From Ehretia macrophylla (Eukaryota > Streptophyta > Magnoliopsida > Boraginales > Ehretiaceae): 64,000 bases of DNA. A model generated the notes under the pieces. It did not search any database and was not told the origin of the DNA. It saw nothing but the letters and a program-made list of their open reading frames with translations. Positions 1,365-55,800 of the stretch are shown piece by piece (positions within the stretch are counted from its first letter, which is position 1; every line of letters starts with the position of its first letter). The DNA lies in the NCBI GenBank assembly GCA_037974665.1, contig CM075764.1, positions 76,400,325-76,464,324 on the forward strand. Direction: 5' to 3'. The translations under genes and the position numbers were made by a program.

Positions 1365-1966
1365 TGTTGATATATGTCAACATCCACCTCTTCATAATAA
1401 GTATCGTTAATTATATGGTAGCATAAATTAATGATTCCGACTTAAACGTCAATGAGGTCAAAAGAGATCGCGATGGCTACAAGAAAGAAGTTCGGAAATT
1501 TGGAATTACCTAAGATGACATCGGGATGATACAATGCTAAAGTTAGCCAACTTGACCAAAGGAAACTTCCTAGAAGTTGACTTGGATGCTAGCCACCCAT
1601 GTGGTTAATTGTAGCCACCCATGTGATAAATATGGGTGGCTAATACTTTGAACATGGTTGGTAAAGCCAACCAAGATTGAAATGTTTGATAGGAAAGTCT
1701 CCTGTGGCGGGCTAACTGAATTCTATAAATAGGCATGCATTAGTTCATCATTTTCATCCATAACACAACTCCAAACACAATCCTAAGTTAGTCTTTCTTT
1801 CTTGTATTCTTCTTGTAAGTCCAGAAGCCATTGAAGCTCTAATCTTGAGAGCGCACGGTGGGACAATTATCTTGTAAGTGTTATATTGAATTGTTATAAC
1901 GAGTAGTGTTGTCTTTCTACTTGATTGTTGTTAAGACGTTTCTGGAAAATTAGTTATATTCTTACA
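1365..1966 (+). repeat. copia 1 5' LTR
   Basis: 602 bp, identical in length to the 3' copy at 6101-6702. It contains a plausible TATA-like stretch (CTATAAATAG, near 1722-1731), so transcription would probably start in the second half of the LTR. A near-direct duplication (TAGCCACCCATGTG, twice between 1591 and 1632) lies in the putative U3 region and is kept in the other LTR. Confidence 0.94.
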
Positions 1967-1979
1967 TGGTATCAAGAGC
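1967..1979 (+). other. copia 1 primer binding site
   Basis: TGGTATCAAGAGC starts directly after the LTR end. It resembles the complement of the 3' end of initiator methionine tRNA (usual form TGGTATCAGAGC) with one extra A, a common variant in plant copia elements. Confidence 0.85.
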
Positions 1980-2025
1980 TTAAGGGGCTCTTAACAACAA
2001 TCTTGTCTAGTAAAGCTCAACAACT

Positions 2026-5000
2026 ATGACTAATCAAGGTGCTAGTTCTTCTTCTACCAGTTCTAGTTCTGGTTTAGTACCGACAATTCGTATCCGTCCC
2101 CCTACCTTCACAGAAGGAAAGCTTGATGGCACGAACTATCTTTTGTGGAAGTTCAAAATCACTACAGTTCTGGACTCCTACGAACTCCTTGATACAGTAT
2201 TAGGCACAGATGCAGAACCAGTTGCAGTCCGTGCTGAAGATGACACAAAAAAGGTCACACCTCCAGATCCTCAGCTTGTCAAAGAATGGAGGAGACGAAA
2301 TGCTGATGCACTTTGTGCAATTGTAACAAGTGTTCAAGATTCCGTCCTTACTCTAATTCAACACACAACCAAGGCAACTGAAGCTTGGAACATACTGAGA
2401 AATCAGTATGAAACAAGGAACCAGACTCGAATTCAGAACTTGGAGAATCAGTTAGCTGCTGAGAGATTAAGTGAAGATGAAGCAGCTGAGTCATTTATCA
2501 GTAGGATGAAAAACCTACGTGATCAAATGGCTGCAGTTGGTATTGCCAAATCAACCGAGGAACTAGCTCGAAGGTGCATTAGAGTGTTGCCTCCAAAATT
2601 TGACGGCCTTGTTACAACACTCAGTACACAAGTTCGCATTCCTCATTTGACGTTTGAAGAAGTCACTGCCATGTTGATGGTGGAGGAGATGAGGCTGAGG
2701 AGCAGAGAAAATCAACTTGACTCTGCCTTTACAGCCAAGGCGAGGAGTAACCAAGAAGAAAAGAAAAAAGTAAAGAAAAAGACGTTCTCTAGATCGTGCT
2801 ACTACTGCAATAAGAAAGGTCATGCTGTCAAAGATTGCAGGAAACGAATCCATGACAAGAAGAACGGAACTTTAAAGCCAAATTGGAGAAATAAAGAATC
2901 TGCCAATACGGCTGAAACGGAAGTGCATCTGTTTACTGTAACAGATGTATCGGAGGAAACGTGTACTAGCGCACATGTACATCAAACAAGTGCATGGGTG
3001 TTAGATAGTGGAGCTTCCCGACACATGACTAGCAAGAAGGAGTTATATGACTCCATAAAACCTCTACAAGAACCAATGAATGTTGTCGTCGGGAATAATG
3101 TGAGGTATCCCGTTGAGGGCACTGGAACCATCTCGCTCGTGTCTCAAGATGGAGGAAGCAAGAAGCTGTCCAACGTACTCTTTGTACCCCAGATCACCAG
3201 AAATTTGCTATCTGTAGCTGCTATTACAGATAATGATCTAGAAGTGCGGTTCAAGAAGACGAAAGCTTTGATTCTTGACAAGGATCAAAATATTGTAAGT
3301 AAAGGTATTCGCAAAAATAATCTTTACGAAATCAGCTCTCTTTCTGCTGTCGTGGATGCCAAAACAAGTTAACTTTGGCATGAAAGGTTTGGGCACATTT
3401 CCTATCCTGTGTTAAAGGAAATGCAAAAGAAGAAGATGGTGGCCGACTTGCCTTCAATTGAAGAAGTTGAAGGACCATGTAAAGCTTGTCTGCTAGGCAC
3501 GCAACATAGACAGTCATTTCTCAAAGAGAATCATAACCGATCAAAGGCTCCTCTAGAGTTGGTACATGCTGACCTCTGCGGCAAAATGACTACCATGGCG
3601 TTGGGAGGATCTTCCTACTTTATGCTGTTAGTCAACGATTATAATAGGAAGATGTTGGTATATTTCCTTCCGGACAAGGCTGATGCTCTTGAAAAGTTTA
3701 AAGTGTGGCACAAACTTGTGACAAATGAGAACACAACTCAGTTGAAGAAATTTCGAACTGATCATGGGAGGGAATTCTGTTCTATAGAGTTTACCAACTA
3801 CTGCAACAAGCTTGGGATTAAGCGCCAATTGACTGCTCCATACACACCACAACAAAATGGAGTTGTGGAACGAAGAAATCGAACAATTGTAGAAATGGCT
3901 CGATGCATGTTGAAAGGTGCTGGCCTACCTGACACATTCTGGGCTGAAGCAGTCAACACAGCGGTATACATCCTCAATCGGTGCTCAACCAGGGCACTCA
4001 ATGATAAGACTCCTAATGAGGCTTATTATGGTACGAAACCTTCTGTGTCTCATTTAAGAAAATTTGGGTGTGAATGTTTTGTACACATTCCAAATAAAAA
4101 TCGAAAGAAATTGGATGACAAGAGCAAGAAGGGCATTTTCTTGGGATATAGTGAAGAGTCTAAAGCATACAAACTCTATGATGTAGAGGCCAAGAAGGTG
4201 ATCATAAGCTGAGATGTGGTGTTTAATGAGCGACCACACTCAATGGAGGATAGCGGTCCTGCCATTTCGTCATCAACTGATGAAGTAATCCACCAAGTGC
4301 CTGAACAACGACCGTTGAACAATGAATAAGTCTCTAATGATGAGGAGACTGAAGACCAACCTGTTGTACCCACAAAGAAGCCACAACCGAAGTGGTTCCA
4401 ACAACTCTTTGATGGAAGAAATCCAGGAATTACTGATGATAGTCCACGTCCAGATGGACTAAGACGATCAAAGAGAATAGAGGAGCAGAACAGATCAGGA
4501 CAACAACTAGTAAACATGGCTTTGATGACCCAAATCATCGAGATGGTAAAAGAACCGGTAACTGTAGAAGAAGCCATGTCAGATCCAAATTGGAGAGCAG
4601 CTATGCAAGCTGAGTATGATAGTATCATGAAAAATGATACTTGGGAGATCATTGAAAAGCCACCGAATAGAAAAATTATCGGCACCAAATGGATCTGGAA
4701 AGTGAAGTACAAGGCAGATGGAAGTCTTGAAAAATACAAGGCACGCCTTGTAACACAAGGATTTTCGCAAGTCGAAGGTTTCGATGTATTTGAAACCTTT
4801 GCTCCAACAGCAAAAATGTCAACAATCAGGTTATTTGTTGCAGCTGCCGCGCATTATGAATGGATTGTACATCAAATGGATGTCAAGTCAGCTTTTCTTA
4901 ATGGGCAACTTGAAGAAGAAGTCTACGTTGCACAACCCCCTGGCTTCCAAATACCAGGTGAAGAAGAAAAAGGCTGCAAATTGAAAAAAGGTTTATATGG

Positions 5001-6072
5001 GTTAAAGCAAGCACCACGAGCTTGGTACAAACGTATAAACTCTTTCTTCTTACAACATGGTTTCTGTAGAAGCAAATCAGAGGCCAACTTGTATGTTCTA
5101 AGTGAACAAGGAAATAAGGTAATTGTAGTCCTATATGTGGATGATCTTGTAATCACTGGTGACCATGAAGATAATATTCGGAAGACGCAAGAATGGTTGA
5201 GCCAAGAATTTGAAATGACAAATCTTGGTCTTCTTCATTATTGCTTGGGAATCGAGGTATGGCAAAAACCTCATACGATCTTCATCTCGCAGCAACGATA
5301 TGTTCGTGAGCTTCTGACTGTATTTGGTATGTCCGAGTGCAAACCAGTTGTCACCCCGATGGAAGTGAATACAAAGTTATCAATTGACGATCCTTCAGAA
5401 CAAGTTGATAACAAGCTCTATAGAAGGTTGGTGGGAAGTTTAATCTTCCTTTGTAACACAAGACCTGATATTAGTTATGCTGTGGAAGTTCTTAGTCGGT
5501 TTTCAAATAAACCGAAACAAAGTCACTAGCAAGCAGGGATGCAGATTCTCAAATATCTCAAAGGTACGTTGGAGTATGGGATATCATACAAGTCTGGAGA
5601 TACTTTATCTGGGTACTGTGACTCAGACTGGGCTGGTGATATTGACTCAAGAAAATCTATTACATGTTACGTATTCACATTCGGTGGTGGAGTCATCTCA
5701 TGGGCTAGTAAGAAGCAACCCACCATTGCACTTTCATCAACGGCAGAATACAAGGCTGCTTGTGTAGCATCCTGTGAAGCTGTTTGGCTACGATGCATCA
5801 TGACTGATATTGGCATTCCAATAGAGGAAGAAACAATGTTGAAATGTGACAGTCAGAGTTGTATAGCCATGTCAAAGAATCCGGTATTTCATGCTAGAAC
5901 AAAACACATAGAGATTCAGTATCACTATGTGAGGAAACTGATTGAGGAATGTGAAATCTACATGGAGTACTGCCCTACAGAAGATAATTGTGCAGATATC
6001 TTCACTAAAGCGTTAAGGAGCATCCAATTGAGCAAGCATCTTCAAACATTGGGTGTTGGCCCAATAGCTTAG
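2026..6072 (+). pseudogene. copia 1 gag-pol polyprotein, four in-frame stops
   Basis: One reading frame encodes the whole polyprotein. Gag carries a CX2CX4HX4C zinc knuckle at residues 258-271 (C258, C261, H266, C271). The aspartic protease motif DSGAS has its Asp at residue 327. The gag-pre-integrase HHCC region begins just after the first stop. Integrase has candidate DDE residues at codons 3571, 3760 and 3868. RT has YVDD at 5134-5145, and RNase H ends near 6072. In-frame stops lie at 3370 (TAA), 4210 (TGA), 4327 (TAA) and 5527 (TAG), with no frameshift. Two of them sit where copia proteins normally have Arg (before DVVF) and Trp (in the tether before RNase H), so both can be C-to-T or G-to-A changes. 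The domain order identifies Ty1/copia; I do not assign a clade. Confidence 0.93.
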
Positions 6073-6091
6073 TCAACATGAGGTGAACATT

Positions 6092-6100
6092 GAGGGGGGG
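6092..6100 (+). other. copia 1 polypurine tract
   Basis: GAGGGGGGG abuts the 3' LTR start at 6101. This is the expected plus-strand primer position for reverse transcription. Confidence 0.85.
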
Positions 6101-6702
6101 TGTTGATATATGTCAACATCCACCTCTTCATAATAAGTATCGTTAATTATATGGTAGCATAAATTAATGATTCCGACTTAAACGTCGATGAGGTCAAAAG
6201 AGATCACGATGGCTACAAGAAAAAAGTTCAGAAATTTGGAATTACCTAAGATGACGTCGGGATGATACAATGCTAAAGTTAGCCAACTTGACCAAATGAA
6301 ACTTCCTAGAAGTTAACTTGGATGCTAGCCACCCATGTGGTTAATTGTAGCCACCCATGTGATAAATATGGGTGGCTAATACTTTGAACATGGTTGGTAA
6401 AGCCAACCAAGATTGAAATGTTTGATAGGAAAGTCTCATGTGGCGGGCTAACTGAATTCTATAAATAGGCATGCATTAGTTCATCATTTTCATCCACAAC
6501 ACAACTCCAAACACAATCCTAAGTTAGTCTTTCTTTCTTGTATTCTTCTTGTAAGTCCAGAAGCCATTGAAGCTCTAATCTAGAGAGCGCAAGGTGGGAC
6601 AATTATCTTGTAAGTGTTATATTGAGTTGTTATAACGAGTAGTGTTGTCTTTCTACTTGATTGTTGTTAAGACGTTTCTGAGAAATTGGTTATATTCTTA
6701 CA
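6101..6702 (+). repeat. copia 1 3' LTR
   Basis: 602-bp direct repeat of 1365-1966 with about 15 substitutions and no length change. Many of the differences are transitions. It ends TTACA at 6702 and is followed by the target duplication GCTTT. Confidence 0.94.
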
Positions 6703-24260: not shown

Positions 24261-24431
24261 TGTTAATGATATGCCCTAATGCTATATAGTTAGATGACCT
24301 ATATAGGGCATTATGATGTGAATATGCATATTAATGACATGGTTGTGTAAGTTCATATTCTCTGATCAATTAAATGAATGTTTCCTTAATATTATTCGGA
24401 GAAGAAATATATTCTAAAAGGGTTTAGAATA

Positions 24432-24598
24432 GGGTGAAGTGCACCAGACCCCCTTATACTTTAGCGAAAGTGCACAACACCCTCCTATAGTTCAAAAACT
24501 CCCTGAACTAGTCTCTATGTTTTTTAAAAGTGCACAACACCCCCTTACAGTTATAAAATCCGTCATATTTAACGGATTTTGTAAAAAAGACGTAAATA
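24432..24598 (+). repeat. Left TIR of the Mutator-like element
   Basis: Inverted match to 34494-34656 with scattered mismatches and small indels (about 85% by eye). Internally it repeats AAAGTGCACAACACC twice and carries a small palindrome around ATCCGT...ACGGAT (24560-24583). Confidence 0.87.
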
Positions 24599-24639
24599 CC
24601 CTCATTTTTTTTTTCATTTCTCTCTTTTGTCATTTCCTA

Positions 24640-24829
24640 GGTTGTTAGTTTTGTCCAACTTACCTGTATCGACAACTTACCTTTGCCGCGATAGGTCGTG
24701 ATAGGGTTAGGGAGTAAGTAAGACCCGAGGAAGGGCAGTGGGCTCCAGGTTTCCCTTGTAGGCGTCGTTGGCTCGAAGATAGTAAGTCGGTTCGCAGATA
24801 GTAAGGGCAGGACTAGTAACACAGTTGTA
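24640..24829 (+). other. Viral leader before the movement protein
   Basis: It contains CAACTTACCT and CAACTTACCTTT about 20 bases apart, then GAAGATAGTAAG-like motifs twice just upstream of the ATG at 24830. The same two motif pairs, in the same order, occur at 32363-32390 and 32493-32524 in the intergenic region. The insertion may therefore be terminally redundant, or the motif set may be a functional repeat. Confidence 0.6.
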
Positions 24830-25850
24830 ATGGCATCTAGTAGCAGTAATGCGTCAGTAGGATCAGATAACAATACTATAGCAAAAACAGAACAGACATG
24901 GACAGTAGGAGAGTTAAGTAATTGGAAACCTCCTAAGATGAAAATAGAAGAGATTTACAGAAAAAGTCATTTCGACTTCAGATCTCTGCTTACTATTAAA
25001 TGTAAGGAAGTAGTTGTGCCACTGACCAGTGACCAACAGAGTATCAGACTTTTCTCCCAGAAAAGCATAGACAAAGCCATTAGAAACGGCTATAGGTTTC
25101 TACATATTGGCCATGTGCAGGTCGCACTTAAGCCTCTAATCAGAGAAGGACTAGATACCAGTGTATATCTAGCTCTTAGAGATTGTAGGTTACTCAGATA
25201 CAATGATTCACTACTAGGATTAGTAGAAACGAGTCTTTGTAATGGACCTATTTTCTTTTAATTGTTTAACAGATCATACCATATCGCTTACATGTCCTCA
25301 TATCATGAAAGCTTTACAGTTAGACATTAAGACGCATAACTATTATGTTGATTGTGGTACACATGCATATGAAGTTATTTATCGTCTTAATTATAAATTA
25401 ATGACAACAGGATTAAATCCTAGATCCATAACTAGACATCGTCCTAAAGGTGAAACTATCCTTTGGAACATGGACAGAAACAGATCAATAGTTAACATAC
25501 CCAGAACAATCATGTGGAACGAAGTTTCACTTCCAGAAAGGTGGGATATTGAAAATGCCACTAAACCAGTTGTTCAGGACCAGAATATCCAGAACTCCAG
25601 AATAGAACAAATCATCCAGTATGATGATGAGACTGTTTCTATTAAGATAGATAGAGGAAATAGGGGATCAGTCTTATCCCGTTCAGCCTCTAGTGTCTCT
25701 AGAATCAGTATTTCAGACCCTACCCCAGGATTTGTTGATCTTTCTTCAACAAACAGAACTCAGACTCAATCTGTTCCCATAGGAATCAGAATTGAAGAAC
25801 AGACTGCTCGTCCAGTCTATCCAGAATTTGAGCCAGCAGATACATCATCT
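24830..25850 (+). pseudogene. Viral movement protein (30K type), frameshifted
   Basis: The frame starting at 24830 (MASSSSNASVG...) continues to 25261. The 30K-type movement-protein region then carries on from 25242 in the next frame, the two overlapping around a CNGPI motif. An apparent one-base gain near 25250 separates them. 30K proteins bind nucleic acid and remodel plasmodesmata in related viruses (family knowledge). The downstream half (residues ALQLDIKTHNYYVDCGTHAY onward) keeps the conserved mid-domain look. The junction with the coat-protein region near 25850 is an estimate, since the reading frame is continuous there. Confidence 0.8.
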
Positions 25851-28440
25851 GTTGACTTCAATCCTTCAGCTTCAGACTTCGGCGTCAGTGTTTTATCTGA
25901 AGTCTTTGAACGAGATGTTCAAGGATTAAAAGATGAATTCATGTCAGAAGAAAATAAACAGATTAGAGAATGGTATTTTGAGAACCATAACAATGAACAA
26001 TTAGCAGAATTAAAAAGCCAATGGCTTCAGTATCTGCAACTTGTTAGGTTAAATGTGCCATTTTTTATGTGGTTTAAACATAGGAATAAGCCAATGAACA
26101 TTAATGTTCTTACTGCAAGAACAAGAAAATGGAATTTGCCTGATTCCACAAAAGTCATTGAATCGGAGCACCCTCCGTTTCAACATACACAGCTTCCTAT
26201 ATCAGAAGGAACTGTAGATCTCAAACCAGTTATTGTTTCAGAAAAACCAGAACTAAAAGACATAGTTCAACAGAATAATTGGACTAATCTTTCAGTTGTT
26301 ACATTACAAAAACAGATTCAGAATATCGAAGATATTCTTGAAAAACATAATACAATCCCCATTACTCCAGTTAAGACTGATGAATCAAAACAGAAGTCAA
26401 CTGAACAGACCACTGTTGCATTGACAAAACCATTTGATTCACTCAAATTAACCAGTTCTAAGGTTGAACCAGAATCCCCGATCAAGGTTTTACCTTTTAA
26501 AATATCAAAATATATTCCAAAATTGGAATCTACAGAAGAGAAGAATACCAAACTTCTCCAGGAACTGATTTCCAGAACCAAGAAATCAGAACCTTCATCC
26601 AGCCAATTGGCTCTTCAAACATTGAAATAGTCAGATAGTAATTCTGATTGCGATTCTTCATCTTCACAGAATTCTGGGAGGGATAAAGTTATCCATCTCA
26701 ATAGAATTTCTTTCCCAGACACAAAGAATTTCTATCCTAGACCTTCACCTCCAGATCTTCAAATTGAAGAATCACATACCCAAAGATCTTTCTCAGGATC
26801 TCAGATCTATGAATGGAACATAGATGGTATGTCAGAATATCAGATACTCAATGTTACCAAACAGATGATCATAATCGGTAACATTTACAAACAAGCTGTT
26901 ACTGAGAGAGCAGCAACTAGAAACATCATTCTTGGCTTCAATGGACAGCTAAAAGGATGGTGGGATGACCACCTCAGTGAAGCTACCAAAGAAGGCATAC
27001 TCAACATGGTGAAAACCAATGAGAATGGAAAACCTGTTCTCAACCAGAATGGTCAGACAGAGTCTTGTGCTCTTTCAGCCTTAGTCTTCGACATCACCTA
27101 CCATTTTATAGGTGATCCTACAGTTTATTAGGAAAGAACATCTGAAATCCTTCAGAACCTCAGATGTAGAACACTCCAAGACTTCCGATGGTATAAGGAT
27201 GTCTTCCTCAATAAGTTATACCAAAGATCTGACAACAATGCCAGTTATTGGAAGGAGAGATTCCTTTGTGGACTTCCAAAATTATTTGCTCAGCAAGTGA
27301 GAGATTCTCTCTCGACAGAATATCCCAGTCTAGACTATGATCTTATGACATATGGAGACATCATATCCCATATTAATAAGACAGCTTTGAAGATTTGCAC
27401 TGATCTTCGACTCAAAGCACAGCTAAAGAAACAATCTAACAGAAAAGAATTAGGAAATTGGTGTGAACAGTATGGTATGGAAAGAGTCAAACCACCCCAT
27501 ACTCAGAAAACACATAAATTCAGAATTTTCGCCAGAAAATATAAAAGTCACATCAAGTCCATTGGACAGAAGTATAACCAGAAGTATGGCAACAAACCAT
27601 ATACTTCCCATAAGAAGAAACATTACCAGAGGTTTCCACGAAGAAATTGGAAATATCAAAAAGATATTAAAAAAGAACAGAAATCCACAGGATGCTTCAA
27701 ATGTGGTAAGTCAGGACATTTTGCAAAAGATTGTAGAATCAGATCACTAATTCAATCATTAGAATTAGATGAAGCTACAAAGAGCAAAATTATCCAATCC
27801 ATAGATGATCTTGAATCATCATCCAGCTCTTCTTCAGAATACTCTGATGAAGAAAACATTAATCAAATTGGAACAGACAACTACTATTCCAGTAGTTCTT
27901 CCAACTCCATCCAGGAATGTGCGTGCCCCAGCAAAGGAGTATGTTTTTGCCAGAAAGGATTAAATGTCCTTACAGATTCTCATGGTCTTATGATCGATAT
28001 GATCTGTAAGATCAATGACCCAGAAGAAAAGCAAGCTTATCTTCTCAGACTCAAAGACATTATGGATCAGAAAGAGGAAGAAAAACCTCAATCCACTCCT
28101 ATCCAGAATAACGTCAAGAATACCAACTATTCTGATGTTCTCAGTTACTTCCAGAAGAGAAAAACCCAACCAATAGGTATCTCTGATCTCCAGCATGAGA
28201 TTAAACTGTTAAAAACAGAAATTCAGCAACTTAGACAAGAGTATAGACAAGAGATTTGTGATCTCAGATTAGATCATGAACATCTCCAACAGGATGTCCA
28301 ACTCTTACAAATAGAATCTTTAGAACGTCAAGAATATCTTTCCCAGAATGATGAACTTGATAAGCAGACCCAGATTGCTTTAGGCAAGTTAACAGAGGGA
28401 GCTAGTACCTCCAAACCTACAGAGGATTACCTCAATCTTC
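25851..28440 (+). pseudogene. Viral coat-protein region with zinc knuckle; two amber codons
   Basis: The same frame as the end of the movement protein continues. A capsid core is visible at about 26820-27300 (KQMIIIGNIYKQAV, GFNGQLKGWWDDHL, CGLPKLFAQQVRD), a pattern typical of plant pararetroviral coat proteins. A basic Lys/Arg-rich stretch follows, then CX2CX4HX4C at 27693-27737 (CFKCGKSGHFAKDC). After it come a Ser/acidic stretch and a long coiled-coil-like segment (about 28180-28360). TAG codons interrupt at 26628-26630 and 27129-27131; the second lies in the capsid core. The reading frame is otherwise open across both. Flanking acidic regions are also usual for this protein. Confidence 0.82.
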
Positions 28441-30364
28441 TGAACAGAATCATTTACCAGAAATGGTATGTCCAGTTAACCATCAAGGTTGATGATTTCA
28501 AATTTAAAACCATTGCCTTATTAGACTCAGGTGCATATATGAACTGTATCCAAGAAGGTCTAATTCCTTCCAGATATTTGGAGAAAACCAGAGATAAGCT
28601 TTCTACAACTGACTCTACCAGACTTCATATCCAGTACAAATTACCTAATGCGCATGTGTGCAATCAAGGTATTTGTTTCCCTACCAGCTTCGTGCTGATA
28701 AAACAGTTAAATTCCCAAGTCATTCTCGGGAATCCATTCCTTCAACAGTTATTTCCCATGACTGTTACAGAACAAGGTATATCTACCAAGGTGTTAGGTA
28801 AACCTATTCTTTTTGAGTTTTATTTCCCTTCACAACGAAGAGATATTAACTCAATCCAACAGAAAGAAAACCAAATCAGTTTTCTTAAACAGGATATCAA
28901 GACCCTCAGAATTGATGAACAGATTGCTAAACAGCAAAAGACCATCAATGAATTCCAGACCAAACTTGAAAAAGAAGTTTGTTCAGATCTTCCTACGGCC
29001 TTTTGGGTTCGTAAGAAACATTCAGTCTCTCTCCCATATGAGAAAGACTTTTCAGAACAAAATATTCCTACCAGGGCTCGGCCCATTCAAATGAACCTGG
29101 AATATCTCACTCTTTGTAAGAAAGAGATCCAGGGTTTATTAGATAAAAAGTTAATCCGACCCAGCAAAAGCCCATGGTCGTGTGCAGCCTTTTATGTTAA
29201 TAAACATGCAGAACAGGAACGAGGTGTCCCTCATCTAGTTATCAACTATAAGCCCTTGAACAAGGTCTTACAATGGATCAGATATCCATTACCCAACAAG
29301 AATGATCTCCTTAAGAGATTAAATCAGGCCCATGTCTTCAGTAAATTCGACATGAAATCTGGATTTTGGCAATCCAAGTCATTGAATCAGAAAGGTACAA
29401 GACAGCATTCACCGTTCCATTTGGACAATATGAGTGGAATGTTATGCCTTTTGGGCTCAAGAATGCGCCTTCAGAATTCCAGAATATCATGAATCAGATA
29501 TTTAATCAGTATACAGATTTTACAATTGTTTACATTGATGATGTTTTAGTCTTCAGTAATGACATTCATCAGCATTGGAAACATCTGCATATTTTCTTTA
29601 AAGTTATTAAAGAAAACGGTCTTGTGGTTTCTGCACCCAAGATTAGACTTTTTCAGACCAAAATTAGGTTTCTTGGTAATATGATTTCTTTCGGGAAAAT
29701 CACCCCTATTCAAAGAACACTTGATTTTGCAGAAAAATTTCCAGACATTCTGCGTGAGAAAACACAGTTGCAAAGATTTTTAGGATCTTTAAACTATGTT
29801 GCAGACTTTTACCCAGGCATCAGACATTTATGTAAACCTCTTTTTGAACGTCTTAAAAAGAATCCTCCAGCATGGACTGATGTCCATACCAATGCTGTAA
29901 AAGAAATTAAGCGTCAGGTCAGAGTTTTACCAGTTTTGACTTTATGTCAACCAGATACTCCAAAGATAGTTCAGACAGATGCTTCTGAATTAGGATTTGG
30001 TGGTATACTATTACAGATATTAGAAGGAAAAGAACACATTGTTCGTTTCAATTCAGGAACTTGGGATAAAGCCCAACAGAACTATTCAACAATTAAAAAG
30101 GAAATTTTGTCCATTGTCAAATGCATTTCAAAATTTCAAGATGACTTGTTGAACCAGAAATTCTTAGTTCGTGTTGACTGCAAGTCAGCAAAAGAAGTAC
30201 TTACTAAGGATGTAAAGAATATTGCATCTAAACAGATATTTGCCAGATGGCAGGCTATCCTGTCAATTTTTGATTTTGACATTCAGTACATCAAGGGAGA
30301 GGATAATTCCATCCCTGATTTCTTAACCAGAGAATTTTTAACAGGCCATGTGCCTATCACATAG
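28441..30364 (+). pseudogene. Viral aspartic protease, reverse transcriptase and RNase H; one frameshift
   Basis: Protease: ALLDSG with the catalytic Asp codon at 28524. RT starts about 28975 and runs in the coat-protein frame through DMKSGFWQ. About one base is then missing near 29370, and the domain continues in the next frame to YIDD at 29531-29542. RNase H follows (QTDASELGFGGIL near 29965 onward, VDCKSAKEVL near 30175) and ends at TAG-adjacent 30364. There is no integrase domain, which separates this from Ty3/gypsy. These enzymes copy the viral RNA in the cytoplasm in related viruses. Confidence 0.88.
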
Positions 30365-30600
30365 GATTCCTTCGGGAATACCTTTTCATTTTGTTGTTTT
30401 TTTTTTACAAATCACAGAAGCGGACACCAAAAATCCAACTAGTGGATTTAGATGGATTGTTTCAAGTCCACCGCAATTAAGTAGATTGAAACACAGATTC
30501 AGATCCAGAAGCGAAATTGATAATTGTTTCAATTCCGTATTTCTTTCTATAAATTGTTGCTAACCATTCTGCTGGATCATTGAACTCCTTGCAATTAGCA

Positions 30601-31929
30601 ATGGCACCCAGGAAAGATAAAGGAAAAGCTAAAGCATTAGATATTGCATCCTATGCCCAGAAAGCTAGAACTCCAGTTGCATCCCCAGTCCAATCTTCAA
30701 CTCCAGTAAAGATTGAAGATAAACAGATAACCTATACACCATATTCTACCCAGTCACCCCTAGGTAGAAACCTCACAGTTTTGGGGACAGTTACCCCGCA
30801 AAAACAGTTAACAGATGTTCGTGCAGGTTTTGCAGGTACATCATCTTCTCAGATGACGATCAGTAACAGGTTTCAGCCGCTTGTTACTAAAAAGAAGACA
30901 ATCACCCCAGAACCTAAACAAACACAACCACAGTTACCATCAACCACATACATATACAAGAATGTGTTCGATCAAATTCTTGTAACAGAACCTTTCTATT
31001 TCAGACAGAACCCCAACATTACCCCCGATGAGTTTGCCAGAGCGTTCCTTCACCCTCATTCAAACTACATCCCAGAAAACACCTATAAAGACCAGAAATA
31101 TTATGAGACAATTCTCATAAAAACAGAATCCATTGAGTTTGTTCCAGATGACAAAAACAAACCTCCAGGCCAGTACAGCCATGTCAAGGCTAAACTCCAG
31201 AAAGTGATCACCCTCGATCAATGGGGACAACCCCCACAGAAAACCAAACAGATCCCAGAAGACATCCCTCTCAAGGACTACAACTATTATGACTACATTC
31301 AGGCGTGGTTCAGAGCATTCAATCGCCAGAATGACAATCATGATATGTCATGGTTCTTCCTTTTCACCAAAACATTCCCATTAGAAGTTCCAAATTGGTT
31401 CATCCAGTGGTGGGCATCTTTTGGTCCAATAACAGAAATTTTACCAGAACCAGTACTAGAAGGATTCTAGAATTTCACAAAGCATTGGGAGACACCAGCT
31501 CAGTTAGCGTATCTTCCTCCATTTTTTGTGTTTTACAGAATCTTCTTTGTAACGTGGATTTTCAGATCAGAATTCGCGTACAAACATGTATCTTTCGAAA
31601 ATCAGCTAGACATCTTGACTTTCGGAAGAGCTCACTCAGTCATGTGGTGGAAGAAGATGAACAATGCTTCATGTTCGACACCAAAGGTTCAAGCATGGCT
31701 CGAGACTAATCAGAAACAGAAAAAAGAAATCCAACCAGAACAGCAGGAATTTCTTTCATTTAAGAACTTCCTCACTACACAGTTAGCAGCGGCCACCAGT
31801 TTTGACGAAGTCAAGGCCATCATGCTACAACTAGAAGAATTAGATAATGCTTCAGATCAAGCATCAGTATCAACAGATCATGCCGATGACAATGAAGATG
31901 ACTGTTACGGCATTTATACTCCACTATGA
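30601..31929 (+). pseudogene. Viral second ORF, function unassigned, one amber codon
   Basis: The first ATG of the frame is at 30580, but the one at 30601 (MAPRKDKGKAKA, 237 bases after the RNase H stop) gives a cleaner basic N-terminus and I prefer it. The frame is open to 31929 except for TAG at 31468-31470. The protein has a basic, Pro/Thr-rich N-terminal third, a globular middle with several aromatic residues (YYDYIQAWFRAF, MSWFFLFTKTFP) and a C-terminal Gln/Glu-rich, probably coiled-coil segment followed by an acidic tail (DDNEDDCYG). I recognise no catalytic motif. It could be the counterpart of the inclusion-body/transactivator gene or of the uncharacterised ORF2 of florendoviruses; a search would decide. 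Confidence 0.7.
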
Positions 31930-32048
31930 GTATAAACTGGATGTAATACTCCACTATGAGTATAAACTGGAAATAGTATAGAAAACAGATGTCATACTCC
32001 ACTATGAGTATAAACTGGGTGTAGTACTCCACTATGAGTATACACTGG
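31917..32048 (+). repeat. Four copies of a 24-bp hairpin-forming repeat over the ORF2 stop codon
   Basis: TACTCCACTATGAGTATAAA-CTGG occurs at 31917-31940, 31947-31970, 31995-32018 and 32025-32048 (last copy with one change). Each contains TACTC...GAGTA, a 5-bp inverted repeat with a 6-base loop CACTAT. The first copy includes the ORF2 C-terminus and stop codon. Spacing is 30, 48 and 30 bases. Confidence 0.92.
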
Positions 32049-32747
32049 AACAAATGAGTTTTCCGGTGTTCTCTCCAAAAACACAGGACATATGAGTTTT
32101 CTAATGTTCTCTAAAAACATTGGACATATAGGGTTTTGTTCTTCTAAGTTCCCTTCAAAAACTAGGATGAAACGGTAAGACTTCCCCTCTCTGAAGTCAT
32201 ATGGTTTCTGAAGAGTTCCATGAAACTTCAGCTAGTCCGGGTCAAACGGCAACCGGTAAAGACATCTCAAGTCCGTTGATGGGTGTGGCTTTCCCAAAAA
32301 GCCAAAGGAAATTTAGAAATTAGTTTATCTTCTAGCCTGTATTTATTTTGTATTTTGCTTAGTCAACTTACCTTTAGCCAACTTACCTTTAGCAAACCTA
32401 TTTCAACAACCATGTAAGGTCACGGCGTTGAGGAGCAGAGGGCGTAAGACTCCGTGTTGGCCATGTGGCGGTTTGGTGAGAGATAGTTAGGCTTCGAAGA
32501 TAGTAAGGCTTCGAAGATAGTAAGACTAAGTACGGTACATGGTAGATTATAGGGAAAATAGACTTGTTTATTTATTTTCTTTGTATTAGTGGGAAATACA
32601 CTTCGATCAAGTGTACTTGTATGTATTTCACCAATTGTTTGTATGTACCAGACTGATGAAGATCACTGCGTCTTCAGCACAGAACCAGTCAGATTCAGAG
32701 ACGATGAAGAAGATGAATCTACAGTTAAGATTCCACCTTCAGACATC

Positions 32748-32915
32748 ATTTTCACATAACGATAAAATTACTTTCGGTCACAGTGAAAGTAATTCAGTCA
32801 AAAAGACAGAATCATCACATCACGACAAGATATCTTTCGGCCACAGTAAAAGGCAGATATGATCATCAAGTCACGACAAAACAAGAATCGGCCACAGTAA
32901 AAGCCGACCACTATT
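32748..32915 (+). promoter_or_regulatory. Viral promoter upstream region with tandem enhancer-like repeats
   Basis: Three degenerate copies of ACGACAAAAT(N)CTTTCGG(C/T)CACAGT-AAAG occur at about 32758, 32820 and 32873, period about 60. Each has ACGA(T/C)AA followed by CGGNCACAGT. They sit about 100-260 bp upstream of the TATA box. This repeated block could be a transcription-factor array like the enhancers of other pararetroviral promoters. A small overlapping frame (32611-32862) is not credible as a gene. Confidence 0.6.
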
Positions 32916-33013
32916 CATGAATAGTAAAAATCACTTTTTACTGTTCACTTTAAGAAAAGTTACTTTTGACTTTTCTTTTTCACATTTCACTTTTCTTTTT
33001 CAGATTCGATATC

Positions 33014-33022
33014 CTATATAAG
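33014..33022 (+). promoter_or_regulatory. Viral TATA box, rightward promoter
   Basis: CTATATAAG within ATCCTATATAAGACAG. By analogy with pararetroviral promoters transcription would start about 30 bases downstream, near 33045-33050. It then reads through the PBS-like spacer into the reverse arm. Confidence 0.75.
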
Positions 33023-33506
33023 ACAGAGTCTGTCTCATTAACATAGGATCCGAATTTTCTTTCTCTCTAAAATTTTTATTTTAATTCGGTATCACTCTTT
33101 GAACATTGTACTCCTGTACAACCAACAGTGTAACAGTACTTCCATTCACAGTTAATAACAAGTAAGAGATTTAATCTCCTTTTATCTCCATCTTATTTGT
33201 AATTCAATTATTTATCTGTCTATTATTCATGTTTATTCCGCTTTCAAAGAACCAGGATTGACAAGATAACAAGAGCCATAACAGAAAGCGGAATAAACAG
33301 GAATAATAGACAGATAAATAATTGAATTACAAATAAGATGGAGATAAAAGGAGATTAAATCTCTTACTTGTTATTAACTGTGAATGGAAGTGCTGTTACA
33401 CTGTTGGTTGTACAGGAGTACAATGTTCAAAGAGTGATACTGAATTAAAATGAAAATTTAGAGAGAAAGAGAATTCAGATCCTATGTATCTGAGACAGAC
33501 TCTGTC

Positions 33507-33515
33507 TTATATAGG
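33507..33515 (-). promoter_or_regulatory. Viral TATA box in the inverted arm, leftward promoter
   Basis: CTTATATAG on the plus strand is the complement of the box in the other arm. The promoter points left, toward the rightward one, so the two converge on the spacer. Confidence 0.72.
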
Positions 33516-34026
33516 ATATCGAATCTAAAAAAGAAAAATGAAATCTGGAAAAGAAAAGTCAAAAATAACTTTTCCTAAAGTGAATAGTAAAAAGTGATTT
33601 TTACTATTCATGAATAGTGATCGGCTTTTACTGTGGTCGATTCTTGTTTTGTCGTGACTTGATGATCATGTCTGCCTTTTACTGTGGCCGAAAGATCTCT
33701 TGTCGCGATGTGATGATTCTGTCTTTTTGACTGAATTACTTTCACTGTGACCGAAAGTAATTTTGTCGTTATGTGATAATGATGTCTGAAGGTGGAATCT
33801 TGACTGTAGATTCATCTTCTTCATCGTCTCTGAATCTGACTGGTTCTGTGCTGAAGATGTAGTAAACTTCATCGGTCTGGAACATACTAACAAATGGTGA
33901 AATACATACAAGTACACTTGATCGAAGTGTATTTCCCACTAATACAAAGAAAATAAAAAACTAGTCTATTTTCCCTATAGTCTACCCTGCATCGTATTTA
34001 GTCTTACTATCTTCGAAGCCTAACTA

Positions 34027-34027
<1 letters not shown>

Positions 34028-34068
<41 letters not shown>

Positions 34069-34190
34069 TACATATACATATATACATATATATACATACA
34101 TATATACATATATATATACATATATATATACATACATATATACATATATATATACATACATATATACATATATATATACACACACATTAA
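34028..34190. repeat. AT-rich microsatellite (TATATACATA-type)
   Basis: Alternating TA/CA runs with ATACATACATATA interruptions. Apparent frames such as a run of Tyr-Met-Tyr-Ile on the minus strand come only from this repeat. It marks the right boundary of the viral inverted repeat. Confidence 0.95.
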
Positions 34191-34215
34191 AATAAAATAC
34201 ACATGCATACAACAC

Positions 34216-34395
34216 ACAGTGGCAGAAGGAGTGGGGATGGGGGTGACGGGCTGGGTTGAGGATAGGGGTAGGTGACTCAGGGGATGGGCAGTAGGGGTGA
34301 GTGACGGGCTGGAGGGTATGGGGATGTTGGGGAAGGGGAAGGGGATAGGGGGTGGGTGACGGGGCTGGGTGGGGTGGGAGGGGTTGGGGAAGATG
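34216..34395 (+). other. G-rich, strand-asymmetric tract
   Basis: A run of about 180 bases on the plus strand dominated by GGGG and GGGTGACGGG-like words, with very few C. It has many groups of three or more G separated by short loops, so G-quadruplex formation is plausible. It lies between the microsatellite and the right TIR. Confidence 0.75.
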
Positions 34396-34493
34396 ACTTT
34401 TTATTATTATTATAATTATTTTTTAAAAAATGGTAATTTGATCAATTCATATAATTATTTAATGAATAAATTCGTTAAAAAAAATCTCACTTA

Positions 34494-34656
34494 ACGCGTG
34501 TGAAGTACACTTTCCGTTAAATTTAACGGATTTTTTACTGGTAGGGGGTATTGTGCACTTTTGAAAAACTACAAGGACTAACTCAGGGGGTTTTAAACTA
34601 TAGGGAGGTGTTGTGCACTTTCGCTAAAGTATAAGGGGGTCTGATACACTTCACCC
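34494..34656 (-). repeat. Right TIR of the Mutator-like element
   Basis: It ends CACTTCACCC at 34656 and is followed by TTTAGAATA. It contains TTAAATTTAACGG, the partner of the left TIR palindrome. Confidence 0.87.
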
Positions 34657-35739
34657 TTTAGAATATAATGGCATGTTTCTTCGACATGATTAACATTAAA
34701 ACTGATTCATAAGCCTCAGATTATTTGATTCGGACTAGAATTATCAAGTACGTGCTATCATATGTAGTTATCTTTGATTTACATGGGTATATTAATGATA
34801 AAGGATGGCGAGCCTTGTGCTATAACAACATGGGGATGCGATTAACTTATATATGAGTGATCATTAGTGGAATGGATCATTGATTGTGACGTAGATAATA
34901 AACTACATGACTTCGGATTAATAGTTATTATTTGTTGCGAATTGTGCAAATTAATCCTTTGACTTGATAAATTACAGTTGCCAAATATATCAAGGGCTAA
35001 ACATAGTGTTTGGATAATACCCGCCTTCGTAAAGGTGAGTTACGGCCTTTCGCAGTTTAGTCGTATAATATAGAGACCGACATGTAATTTTCAAAATAAG
35101 ATCCGTTAACCTCCGATGTGAGGTGATGTCCTATGTGATCTTATTTCGGTCGTAGAATGAGAAAGTCCTTGGTCAATGCGTGATTGATAGAAAGAGGTTT
35201 TTCCATAGTGTCATCTCTCGTTCTACCGATTAGATATATGCATTGAATCAAGTTAGTGGACTTAATCATGTCATGGTCCTCATTCGGTCGGGACATATTT
35301 AATGGATGGATCGAATTACACGCTAATTCGCGACTATAAATAGATTCATGAAAGTCGAACTTCATTACCGTATAAACTGTGATGATATGTATGTTGCTAG
35401 ACATCACTCTTAAACGTAAAGGTATTCCGGAGAATGGCGGAGATATTCTCGTAATAGATTAAAAGTGTTTAATGGTCCATCATCACTATACGGTCGTGAA
35501 TCTATAAGGTCACACACAATAGAGCATCATGAATAGGGTTATTAATGAGCTTGTATTTATTTTGGAAGAGATGTTAAAGAGTTAACATCATTCACTTTGG
35601 TCGTTGAAAGTTAACGGGCCAAAAGTATAATTAGTGAAAGTGTTAGGGCCATTGTGTAAATATTGAAAATGGTTTCAATTAATTAATTATTCTAATAAAG
35701 ATTAGAATTAATTAATATTTACACAAGTTAGTGGAAAGT

Positions 35740-35784
<45 letters not shown>

Positions 35785-36486
35785 TAAGAGAAGATTACTT
35801 GGATAGCTTTTTCCCAAGTCATCATTCCACTTATTCTCTCTCATGGGTGATGTCATACTCCACTTACTCAAAAAGTAATAAATAGGATTTAATCTTGGCT
35901 AAAAAAGTAGTTTCAAGCCATGGTTTTAAATTAAACAAGTGGTTTTGTCTTGGGATTAAGACAAAAACCACTTATCCACTTCAACACTCAATCTAATGAT
36001 TATTAGCAAGATAAGATGAAAAACAAGACACTATTTCTCTCTCTCCAAGCATGCTAGTCATAGCCAAGAGAGGTTGAGAAAGTTAGAGTTTTTCTCTTGT
36101 CTTCTAGTTTAGTACAAGCTCTAATCCACCTTAGATAAGCTAGTACATTTCGTCTTAGAGCGGATTCAACCCTTAGATGTTCGTGTGTTTCCACCTAGAA
36201 CTTTCAGATTTGAGGAGGAGCTAATCTGCATCCAACAAGTCTTGCATCCACCCTTTGGCTATCTTCAAGAGGTATACCACCATCTATACTCTTGTCCATT
36301 ACATATAGATGATATATATTGCTTTGCATGTTAGTTTTATGGACATTACTTGAAGAATATGTGTTGATACAAGCTTATGTTGGTAGAAATTTTTGAAATA
36401 TGTCTTGTTCCATTTTCGGCCATAGCTAATTATCCATATGATTCTTTGATGATCTTGATTATGTTTAATAAAACATTGCCTTCAAG

Positions 36487-36499
36487 TGGTATCCAAGCC
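36487..36499 (+). other. copia 2 primer binding site
   Basis: TGGTATCCAAGCC follows the LTR by two bases. It is a variant of the methionine-tRNA complement. Confidence 0.7.
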
Positions 36500-51782: not shown

Positions 51783-52822
51783 TGTTAGTGATATGCCTTA
51801 ATGCTATATAGTTAGATAACCTATATAGGGCATTATGATGTGAATATGCATATTAATAGCATGGTTGTGTACGTTCATATTCTTTGATCAATTATATGAA
51901 TGTGTCCTTAATATTACTCGAAGAAGAAATATATTCTAAAAGGATTTAGAATATAGTGGCATGTTTCTTTGATATGATTAACATTAAAACTGATTCATAA
52001 CCCTCAGATTATTTGATCAGGACTAGAGTAATCAAGTCTGTGTTATCATATGTAGGTACCTTTGATTAACATAGGGATGTTAATGATAAAGGATGACGAA
52101 TCTTATGTCATAACAGTATGAGGATGCGATTAAGTTATATATGAGTGATCATTAGTGGAATGGATCATTGAATGTGACGTAGATAATAAACTACATGACT
52201 TTGGATTAATAGTTTATTATTTGTTGCGAATTGTGCAAATTAAACCTTTGACTTGAAAAATTATGGTTGTTGGATATATCAGGGGCTAAATATAACGTTT
52301 GGACAATACCTGCCTTCGTAAAAGTGAGTTACTATCTTTCACAGTTTAGTCTTGTGATATAAAGACCGATAGGTAATTGTCAAGATAGGATTCGTTAACC
52401 TCTGACGTGAGGCGATGTCTTATGCGATTTTATTTCAGTCGTAGAATGAGGAAGTCCTTAGCCAGGGCGTGATTGATGGAAATGGGTTTTTCTATAGTGT
52501 CATCTCTCGTTCCACCGATTAGACCTATGCATTGAATCAAGTTAGTGGACTTAATCATGTCATGGTCCTCATTTGGTCGGGACATATTTAATGGAAGGAT
52601 CGAACTGCACGCTACTTCGCGAGTATAAATAGATTCATAAAAGTCGGACTTTATTACCGTATAAGATGTCATGATACGTATGTTGCTAGACGTCACTCTT
52701 AAACGTGAAGGTATTTCGAAGAATGATGGAGACATGCTCGTAATAGATTAAAAGTGTTTAATGGTCCCTCATCCCTATACTGTCGTGAATCTAGAAGGTC
52801 ACACACAATAGAGCATCATGAA
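51783..52822 (+). repeat. copia 2 3' LTR, truncated by the second gypsy element
   Basis: Matches 24261-24431 plus 34666-35533 of the 5' LTR. It stops at AGCATCATGAA, where the minus-strand gypsy LTR begins. The remainder would lie beyond the window. Confidence 0.88.
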
Positions 52823-55800
52823 TGTCACGCCCCGACCCAACCCCTCGCTAAAGGTTAAGTCTGGACCGAACAAACGGACAGAGTCTCCTCTGTACCGTGA
52901 ACATTCTGAAAACCTGTAAGCATTCAATAAAACCACAAAACAACAAGAACTCCATTTCTAATTAAAATCCTAGCTTCAAGGCCATCCTAGCCATAAGCAA
53001 TACAAACAGTTTAGATACATACAAGCATGCATTCCACAATACAAACTTCTTTACAAAACTGCTTATCATACTACTATATGATAGCATTTAAACATTCTTA
53101 GAAATTAAAGTCAACCATTACAACCCCTGCTACCACACACACAAGCATGCAGCAAACTAAAGTAAGTATATTAGTTATTACATGCCACTGATACTAATCA
53201 TACAATACATTCAAACTTACAACTAAACGATATATATTGTGAAACCCCAATTTTTGTCTTTGCCTCGATTTGCGTGTCTTTGCCTCGATTTGCGTGATTT
53301 GACCTGTTATGTGTTATATGAGTTAGAATGTGCTAAATATGTGATTTATATTCCTAATACATGCTATGTGTGCATTCATGAAATTTTCATCAAAATCGGC
53401 ATCATAAATTTTATCGGCGATTTTTGTGAATAGTATTTTGAACTCCTGTCCGCTAAAATTTTTACGCAGGTGTTTTAAGTGTTTTAAGTGTTTTAAAACC
53501 TAGTCCTCGGATATTAATAGACCCGTGTTTGATTAAAACGGATTTTAAATCAGTTTTAGAATTTTAAAGGTTTTTACACTTTCTTTTGCAAAAATTGAGT
53601 TTTTACCCGAGCGGGTGTATGGGTATGCATGTGAAAATGTTGTCAGCTATTCTTAAACTACTAAATATAGTATTTTTACTTGAGCAAGCAAAATAGTCAA
53701 GAAAATAGAATTAAAAGACTAAAAATAGAATTAAAAGACTAGGAAACTAACTTTGACTTTTTAAAATTTGTTGGCATTGATCTTATTAGCATAAACACAC
53801 ATTAGAATCAACACAAAACATACTCACTCAACACACACAAGGCCGAGAGCCATAGGAGAAAAAAAGGAAGAAAAACTGAAGGTTTTCAAAGGGATTTTTC
53901 ATTAGAACTTGCAATTGAAGGCCAAATCTTGTCAACCAGAGCTTGAATTCACTTGTTGGGCATCCTTTGCACATTTTTTTTGCATCAAAACACATCAAAG
54001 GAGAGAGAAAAATTCTAGATCTCAAAATCTCATTTTTATGTTAATTCATATAATCGAATTTTTAGCCGTTGAAATGTTATATTGATGTTATATTATTGCT
54101 CAATAGATGCTAAGGATTGATCATATGGGTTTATAGCTATTTTGAACCGTTGTAGTATGTAATTCTATTTTTCGGGTATTAAAATTGAGAATTTGGCTAT
54201 TTATTGAATAAATGTTGTTGTGGTTGTTGGAATTGTTTGCTGTTAGTTTCTAAAAGTTTGTTAAATACGTGGTAGTAATGTTGTAATGCCGAAATTTTGA
54301 TTGTGATGTTGGTGTGAAAGTCTGGAAATTTCAGCCATGATGCATTAGGGTTTTAGGGTTGTTGGGCTTGATTCGGATGTATTATAGTTGGTTTCCGAGG
54401 GGCCTAATGTAGTTGCTTGAGTGGGTGAGTAATAGAAATTGGTTTGGAGGTGATTGGATTAGTAGAATGTAAGTTATGACTTTTAGAAGTTTGGGTTGTC
54501 TTTCTTTAAAATGTTGAATTATGCCTTTGGATGTTTGGGTGGTGTTTGAATGTTGAATTGTGAGTTGTTGATGGTTAGACTAGGGTTTGGTTATGTGGTT
54601 AATGCATGTCAAGTTGGATGGCCTACTTTGTTATCTAACTTAGTTGTTGAGTTGTTAATTGTTTATTAGATGATATGTTGTTGAAATGTTATTAATTGAT
54701 TATTGATTATTGATTATTGATGAGCCGGTAGATAGGCAACCTACTTTGTTGTCATCCTATGATAATTGATTATTGATGAGCCGGGAGATAGTCAACTTGA
54801 TATGTTGTCCTTCTGAGATATGAATGTTTATTATTATTGTCATGAGTTTTGATATGTGTGTGTCACCTCTCGAGCAGCGTTGGGTTGTCGGGTTGATAAT
54901 GGCATGACTATCATAGGCTACCCCCAGCTAGCATGGGCGGAGGTGCCATGGAGGGAGGGGTTAGAGAGGTACCTCAGATGCATGAGTAATGGGGAGTTAT
55001 AAGAAGAATGGTTGAGATCGTGATGGCGTTTGGAGCTACACCAACTAGAGTATCCTTTATTGATTGGTCATTATTTCTAATGTGCTTATATTGTTATTGT
55101 TGATTATTATGTGTTTATTGCTCAAATAATGATTTCCAATTAGTATAGTAAATACTATTAGAGATCTATCGAATCTTCACTGAGCTTGTTTTATATAAGC
55201 TCACTCTCAATTATTGCATGCATACATGTGATATTGAACAAGATTATGGGTACGTGCCTCAGGAGGCTGAGAATGTGCCATATGTGGACGAGTCCTATGT
55301 GCCAGAGTCTTGTCTTTGATATCTGATGTTGTACTCTTTGGTTAACTTGTATATTAAAACTAGTTGGTTTGTATTTACTTAGAAGTTTATGATGTATAAG
55401 ATGTTGTAAAGATAATGGATTAAATGTTGCTAGCTTAGTAGTCTTGTTTTGGAATATGATTAGGCTACTAGATTGGTTATAATCAATTTTGGAAATGTAT
55501 GTTATATAGTAAATGTATGATGTTGGAACGGAGGCGTATAACCTATGGATGCAAAGGTAAAAGAATGTTTATTGTATATTATGGTTGTGTTGTTTAATTG
55601 TTGAATTGTTGTGGAGTTGGTTGTATGAGTTGCGAGGAGGTTGGTTTAGAGCCTCGGTGTCCTAATTACTGTCATTATACTATCGAAATTCCGTTGCGTC
55701 CTGACTGATTGTATGAGGGGTCGAGTTGAGGCGTTACATATACATGAGCTCAAGGCTCCAAAATAGAACATAAAGTAGAACAAGCAAAGTCTTCACATAA

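Follow-up and report, generated by a model that had tools for sequence, protein, structure and literature searches.

How does a virus without an integrase come to lie between the ends of a DNA transposon? The preliminary description of a 64,000-nucleotide window of the Ehretia macrophylla genome (the whole stretch of DNA analysed here) had placed a pararetrovirus between Mutator-like ends and proposed two origins: either the virus integrated into a resident Mutator-like element (MULE), or the MULE took up viral DNA and transposed with it. The unit between the target-site duplications (TSDs) measures 10,225 bp (24432-34656) and sits within one LTR of a Copia-like element. It is flanked, as had been claimed for a unit of 10.2 kb, by a perfect 9-bp TSD, TTTAGAATA (24423-24431 and 34657-34665), whose copies are directly abutted by the TIR tips GGGTGAAGTG (left) and CACTTCACCC (right). 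The TIR cores (24432-24576 and 34513-34656) align with 126 of 142 ungapped sites identical, and permissive settings extend the alignment to ~196 bases, in fair agreement with the length of about 165 bp first given. When the flanks are joined with one TSD copy, they align without a break through the partner LTR, in which TTTAGAATA occurs once (51945-51953), just as the reported empty site implied. That the TIRs and TSD match by chance, with no transposon unit at all, is a practically negligible prospect, which we rejected because the 9-bp sequence occurs only once in the empty partner LTR and because the ends belong to a multi-copy family in which 34 of 39 copies have perfect 9-10 bp TSDs. The observation itself, a virus inside a MULE-bounded unit, is confirmed.

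The repeat that hosts the unit (Table 1) is read as an LTR because a PPT-like string stands just before 51783 and the left LTR copy is followed, at 36487, by the primer-site-like TGGTATCCAAGCC; both were found by eye. The LTR pair has diverged by K = 0.120 over 1041 sites. At ~52823 the 3' LTR of this Copia-like host ends where a sequence starting TGTCACGCCCC begins, probably another LTR element inserted there. Elsewhere in the window (1365-6702) lies a young Copia element, with an LTR pair 97.5% identical over 602 columns and an open RT frame, which is surrounded by other LTR elements.

Table 1. Features of the virus-bearing unit and of its host element (window coordinates).
Feature	Position	Strand	Remark
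5' LTR of Copia-like element, interrupted by the MULE	24261..36486	+	LTR = 24261-24431 plus 34666-about 36486
Left TSD copy, TTTAGAATA	24423..24431	.	single copy in partner LTR, 51945-51953
Left part of putative resident non-autonomous MULE; TIR core 24432-24576	24432..24638	+	96-99% identity to 39 other scored places
Probable viral molecule 1, nearly one genome unit, presumably opened immediately downstream (3') of the tRNA-Met primer site	24637..33245	+	matches at 39 other scored places begin at 24637; none extends into the MULE side
Movement protein, N-terminal part (PF01107)	24830..25261	+	frame ends near 25230-25260; start codon read
Polyprotein middle: DUF7588, DUF7746, coat, zinc knuckle, protease	25227..29492	+	in-frame stops 26628, 27129
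RT (C-terminal part) and RNase H	29345..30364	+	frame differs from 25227-29492
Second ORF, no known homologue	30553..31929	+	in-frame stop 31468
Promoter and leader of the virus (TATATAAG at 33015), forming the left arm of the inverted repeat	32498..33245	+	genome matches
Probable viral molecule 2, inverted; right arm of inverted repeat	33246..34029	-	starts about 2 nt before primer site, runs back through leader and promoter
MULE (TA/CA)n microsatellite	34030..34183	.	same place in 27/28 extracted long MULE bodies
Right MULE part: G-rich segment, then right TIR core 34513-34656	34184..34656	+	39 other scored places match fully or partly
Right TSD copy	34657..34665	.	same 9 bp as left copy
Partner 3' LTR with empty site, right side cut off	51783..52823	+	joined flanks align across 51945-51953

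The main content of the unit had been described as a nearly complete Caulimoviridae genome, and its Pfam domains indeed run in order: movement protein, DUF7588, DUF7746, coat, zinc knuckle, protease, RT and RNase H. The gene order (MP, CP with zinc finger, protease, RT, RNase H), a second ORF without homologues, a TA microsatellite at the site and the lack of a detected integrase are all shared with the florendoviruses found near (TA)n, as described in PMC4241990. Judged by its domains and gene order, the virus is a member of the Caulimoviridae with a florendovirus-like layout. Among the homologues of the RT region, the best 120 of 929 are 58-74% identical; one close relative (P0009) is filed under an archaeal metagenome assembly (Nitrosopumilaceae) and is probably plant contamination. 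Scans of viral contigs and genome contigs returned no relative. The first 305 aa of the second ORF had no homologue at E 1e-3 and no Pfam domain above cut-off, and none of the 11 ORFs of at least 100 aa in the unit carries an integrase core domain; likewise, no transposase domain, mudrA-type included, was detected in the 11 stop-to-stop ORFs of at least 100 aa between 24300 and 34800. The viral copy makes up almost one unit and is nearly complete, yet it is broken, with reading frames that change at about 25230-25260 and again at 29345-29490, and with in-frame stops at three positions (26628, 27129 and 31468). The first frame change comes after part of the movement protein domain and need not be damage, since some florendoviruses split ORF1 after that domain (PMC4241990). 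The region before the movement protein gene (24640-24880) and the region before the promoter (32340-32560) share a diverged repeat (score 50 against 16.6 +/- 2.7 in 200 shuffles). A promoter and leader query (32498-33245) gave 41 near-full-length genome matches, including the two arms of the unit itself; the others are 91-96% identical.

We then asked what the MULE ends enclose elsewhere, searching the genome (1.58 Gb, 20 contigs) with 40 places scored per search out of 666-1982 first-look candidates. The left MULE end was found at 39 other scored places (of 1982 candidates), all 39 of which were cut out; every one is virus-free and 447-481 bp long, and their TSDs comprise 29 perfect 9-bp and five perfect 10-bp duplications, three with one mismatch and two copies with none. 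For the right end, 39 places besides our own were scored (of 1677 candidates), and 29 of these loci were cut out (L042-L070). Bodies of 619-873 bp were obtained for 28 of these, with 18 perfect TSDs (end shifts up to 4 nt allowed), six with one mismatch and four poor ones; two loci, L063 and L067, share one TSD and may be one insertion copied. Three further right-end places comprised two virus-free MULEs and one place without a left end within ~680 bp and without virus, while the seven that were not cut out each have an inverted TIR partner at a span of 464-821 bp. Long TIRs, a 9-bp TSD and multiple copies at different sites mark the element at our locus as a non-autonomous MULE, so far as such sequence hallmarks define one.

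Viral DNA is absent from these relatives. Eight separate viral pieces had no match in the 67 non-empty extracted bodies nor in any of the 29 loci L042-L070. Across L002-L040 and L042-L070 they match one locus, L038 (C3:46171325-46177394), where a short MULE of this family has viral promoter pieces ~420 bp away, outside its ends. Of 68 other MULE loci examined, 67 measure 447-873 bp and one ~2 kb. The latter, L069 (C14:53234784-53238210), was considered as a second composite and rejected, being a long MULE whose G-rich part is interrupted by ~1.2 kb of non-viral DNA; MULEs of this family therefore take other nested insertions too. The paired-TIR survey thus yielded plentiful copies that match the outer parts only.

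The interior of these copies bears on whether the MULE could have captured an already integrated virus between its ends, in the manner of a Pack-MULE. The virus does lie between intact TIRs, and the (TA)n and G-rich sequence beside it at first resembled host flank that had arrived with it, since neither a (TA)6 run nor a G-rich stretch occurs in any of the 39 short copies. The longer subfamily overturned this idea: a (TA/CA)n run is present in 27 of the 28 extracted long bodies, beginning at position 223-248, and the (TA)n plus G-rich stretch at 34030-34424 is part of that subfamily rather than viral flank, so that only viral DNA was added. Moreover, the added DNA ends at the viral primer site, as viral DNA would and a copied chromosomal segment would not. 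Since the non-viral interior is the MULE subfamily's own, we found no chromosomal sequence acquired between the TIRs, and capture is very improbable. Our locus belongs to the longer subfamily. In 21 copies of that subfamily, CATTTCCT and the TA run are separated by 26-42 bp (median 33); here the virus replaces this interval. The inner junctions, first suspected near 24600-24640 and 34030-34200, can be placed at 24638 on the left and about 34029 on the right. This part of the earlier account of the contents stands; to be added to it are an inverted repeat (32498-33245 and 33284-34029) and the assignment of 34030-34424 to the MULE.

If the MULE had moved viral DNA repeatedly, the same junctions should recur at several loci with different TSDs, as the preliminary description had proposed. 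A 200-base left-junction query matched end to end at its own locus only (1 of 40 scored); in the 39 others (of 1539 candidates) the match begins at query base 99 (24637), with 100% identity in 34 and 99% in five. Similarly, a 401-base right-junction query matched end to end only at its own locus (1 of 40 scored), and the 39 others (of 666 candidates) comprise 34 with virus only and five with TA/G-rich sequence only. Any further composite whose junctions resembled these would be expected at rank two of either list; one with diverged junctions or of lower rank could escape these searches, which scored the top 40. Several loci sharing virus/transposon junctions, as in Teratorn, were thus not seen (1 of 40 scored for each junction), and capture and transport of viral DNA by the MULE finds no support, the shared-junction search having given one locus instead of several. 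In contrast, the empty MULEs (39/39 and 29/29) and the single-locus junctions (1/40 each) support integration of the virus into a resident MULE. In the left-junction search, 34 of the 39 additional places are 100% identical to the viral leader and 5' end (24637-24738), from which it follows that the viral family entered or spread recently or that the stretch is under strong constraint. A further viral end borders a (TA)n tract at C18:79802230-79802409, as the known preference would lead one to expect.

A single move is a subtler possibility: the virus would have entered a MULE elsewhere, and the 10.2-kb composite would have moved once, by cut-and-paste with transposase supplied in trans, into the LTR. 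Clean TIRs and a 9-bp TSD around 10.2 kb are the trace expected of such a move, and a nested insert need not stop a MULE, as 107 rice MULEs contain one whole or partial nested MITE (PMC3903597). The decay estimates per site (0.06 for the LTR, 0.030 for the MULE and 0.008 for the virus) speak to both sides. The viral value, derived from stops, is 0.008 substitutions per site since selection ended (0.0016-0.027 under three rate assumptions), far below the 0.06 of the LTR (P at most 4e-6), which dates the virus later than the Copia-like host, a point in favour of a single move; if one of the viral stops is a natural gene end, the virus would be younger still. For the MULE, 13 of 432 sites at its ends differ from the consensus of 29 short copies (L002-L030), giving 0.030 (0.016-0.051), with 10/225 in the right half and 3/207 in the left half, which was selected by search and is biased low. 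Counting only the differences found in none of the 29 copies (2 of 13) lowers the age to 0.005 (0.0006-0.017), which is not above the viral age and again favours a single move. The order LTR, MULE, virus is therefore favoured by the first measure only and is not proven by dating, because the age intervals overlap and because of the alternative value of 0.005. Dating by TIR divergence (0.123) is uninformative, since TIRs differ within the MULE family. Against a single move stand the first MULE age, older than the virus, the lack of a second composite among the 40 places scored at either junction, and the sizes of the 68 other MULE loci, of which the only one beyond 873 bp holds a non-viral insert. 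We regard such a move as improbable.

How the virus came to be in the MULE is indicated by its own ends. In all three other viral copies inspected, TGGTATCAGAGC, which we take to be the tRNA-Met primer site, follows the leader, and next comes the sequence that opens the present insert. In caulimovirid DNA, the tRNA-Met primer site marks a discontinuity. This site is absent from the insert at our locus, which starts after it, 20 nt downstream of the primer-site start (3/3 copies compared), and molecule 1 ends 41-42 positions before it. The right end of the insert is taken up by the large inverted repeat, whose arms are identical at 707 of 748 columns and whose loop is the reversed leader of a second viral molecule. 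The loop aligns with a copy on contig C17 over 33/38 bases, ending 2 nt before the primer site, and with the other two copies over shorter stretches (28/32 and 34/35), so that the match is whole-length in one of three only. A plus-strand primer-site match suspected by eye in this loop was not above chance. An end near the primer site has a counterpart at a Prunus locus, where a partial florendovirus unit reaches the tRNA-Met consensus before the next copy (PMC4241990).

The pivot of the inverted repeat falls in the leader and primer-site region, as it would if one viral molecule had been copied by self-primed snap-back. However, the outer 130 bp of the inverted arm are 95-99% identical to 34 other viral places and only 93.9% (123/131) identical to the left arm of the same repeat, which argues for two source molecules, and the arms have diverged by more than the decay since integration accounts for (P 0.006-0.023). 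Snap-back, which would explain only this one step, is for these reasons unlikely, and two viral molecules have probably been joined. The two viral promoters within 32498-34029 face each other, and the predicted RNA fold of the repeat, a near-perfect hairpin (-240.6 against a mean of -60.3 kcal/mol in 100 shuffles, over 331 nt), makes it a possible source of hairpin RNA. Rearranged caulimovirid copies with inverted repeats have been linked to 22-nt siRNAs in tomato (review PMC10377300); our locus shares the inverted repeat, whereas its hairpin is a prediction. Other viral promoter copies form close inverted pairs at C18:82915548+/82916942-, C1:90445001+/90447075- and C6:25001397+/25001648-, and a tandem pair at C17:72850418-/72857947-.

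Taking these data together, we consider it highly likely that end joining put viral DNA into a break at the resident MULE's own TA microsatellite, making the composite a nested insertion. A ~0.8 kb non-autonomous MULE with (TA)n would have jumped into the 5' LTR of the Copia-like element and made the 9-bp TSD, since the partner LTR is empty. Viral DNA opened at the tRNA-Met primer site would then have been joined into a double-strand break at the microsatellite: molecule 1 would run once round the circle from just 3' of the primer site and be joined head-to-head to the primer-site end of the second molecule. About 30 bp of the MULE would have been lost, with 2 bp ('CT', 24637-24638) shared at the left joint, where, as a point against this reading, there is no TA remnant. 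The MULE would have been a passive host, the virus decaying afterwards. Insertion in place is argued for by the empty MULE copies, the single junction and the microsatellite; repair by end joining fits the viral ends at the primer site, the 2-bp overlap, the small target loss and the TA microsatellite. Such repair is the mechanism proposed for caulimovirid integration (PMC4241990, PMC10377300), and florendovirus loci often adjoin (TA)n that predates the insertion (PMC4241990). One virus-in-MULE composite is, moreover, close to the chance expectation: the 1677 MULE places, at about 0.8 kb each, make up 0.085% of the genome, so that with 917 viral places ~0.8 hits in such MULEs are expected before any TA preference, a rough estimate, both numbers being crude first-look counts.

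The locus resembles several known systems and differs from each. In the florendovirus loci of PMC4241990 the unit is reported as 7.2-8.5 kbp, slightly shorter than the about 8.67 kb estimated here, and at our locus the microsatellite is part of a MULE, whose TIRs and TSD enclose the virus. MuTAnT MULEs target TA repeats (PMC4486113); here the TA tract lies within the MULE and not around it. Foreign elements inside MULEs with intact ends are known from maize and rice, where over a third of candidate coding MULEs hold a nested insertion (PMC3903597); in our case the nested DNA is viral, and no amplified composite copies were found. Teratorn, a piggyBac-herpesvirus fusion, likewise has a large viral genome between DNA-transposon ends, but it keeps transposition activity and its fused forms recur in teleosts (PMC5601938), whereas the present composite was found at one locus and no transposase domain was detected inside it. 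No pararetrovirus within a MULE is reported in the literature titles and abstract openings surveyed, or in the available parts of PMC10741241 and PMC12904150.

For this locus, our results all but close the idea of virus spread by a DNA transposon, and the suggested route by which a MULE would spread an integrase-less virus is not supported here. We think it improbable that the composite of MULE ends and integrase-less virus was mobile even once, reaching the LTR by MULE transposition; if true, a caulimovirid could hitchhike on a DNA transposon. What the locus does offer is an unusually clear view of a possible caulimovirid entry, with an opening at the primer site, two molecules head to head and a TA microsatellite as receiver. 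Since many MULEs of the family carry the microsatellite, they may act as dispersed landing pads, in which case a virus would occasionally end up between TIRs purely by chance.
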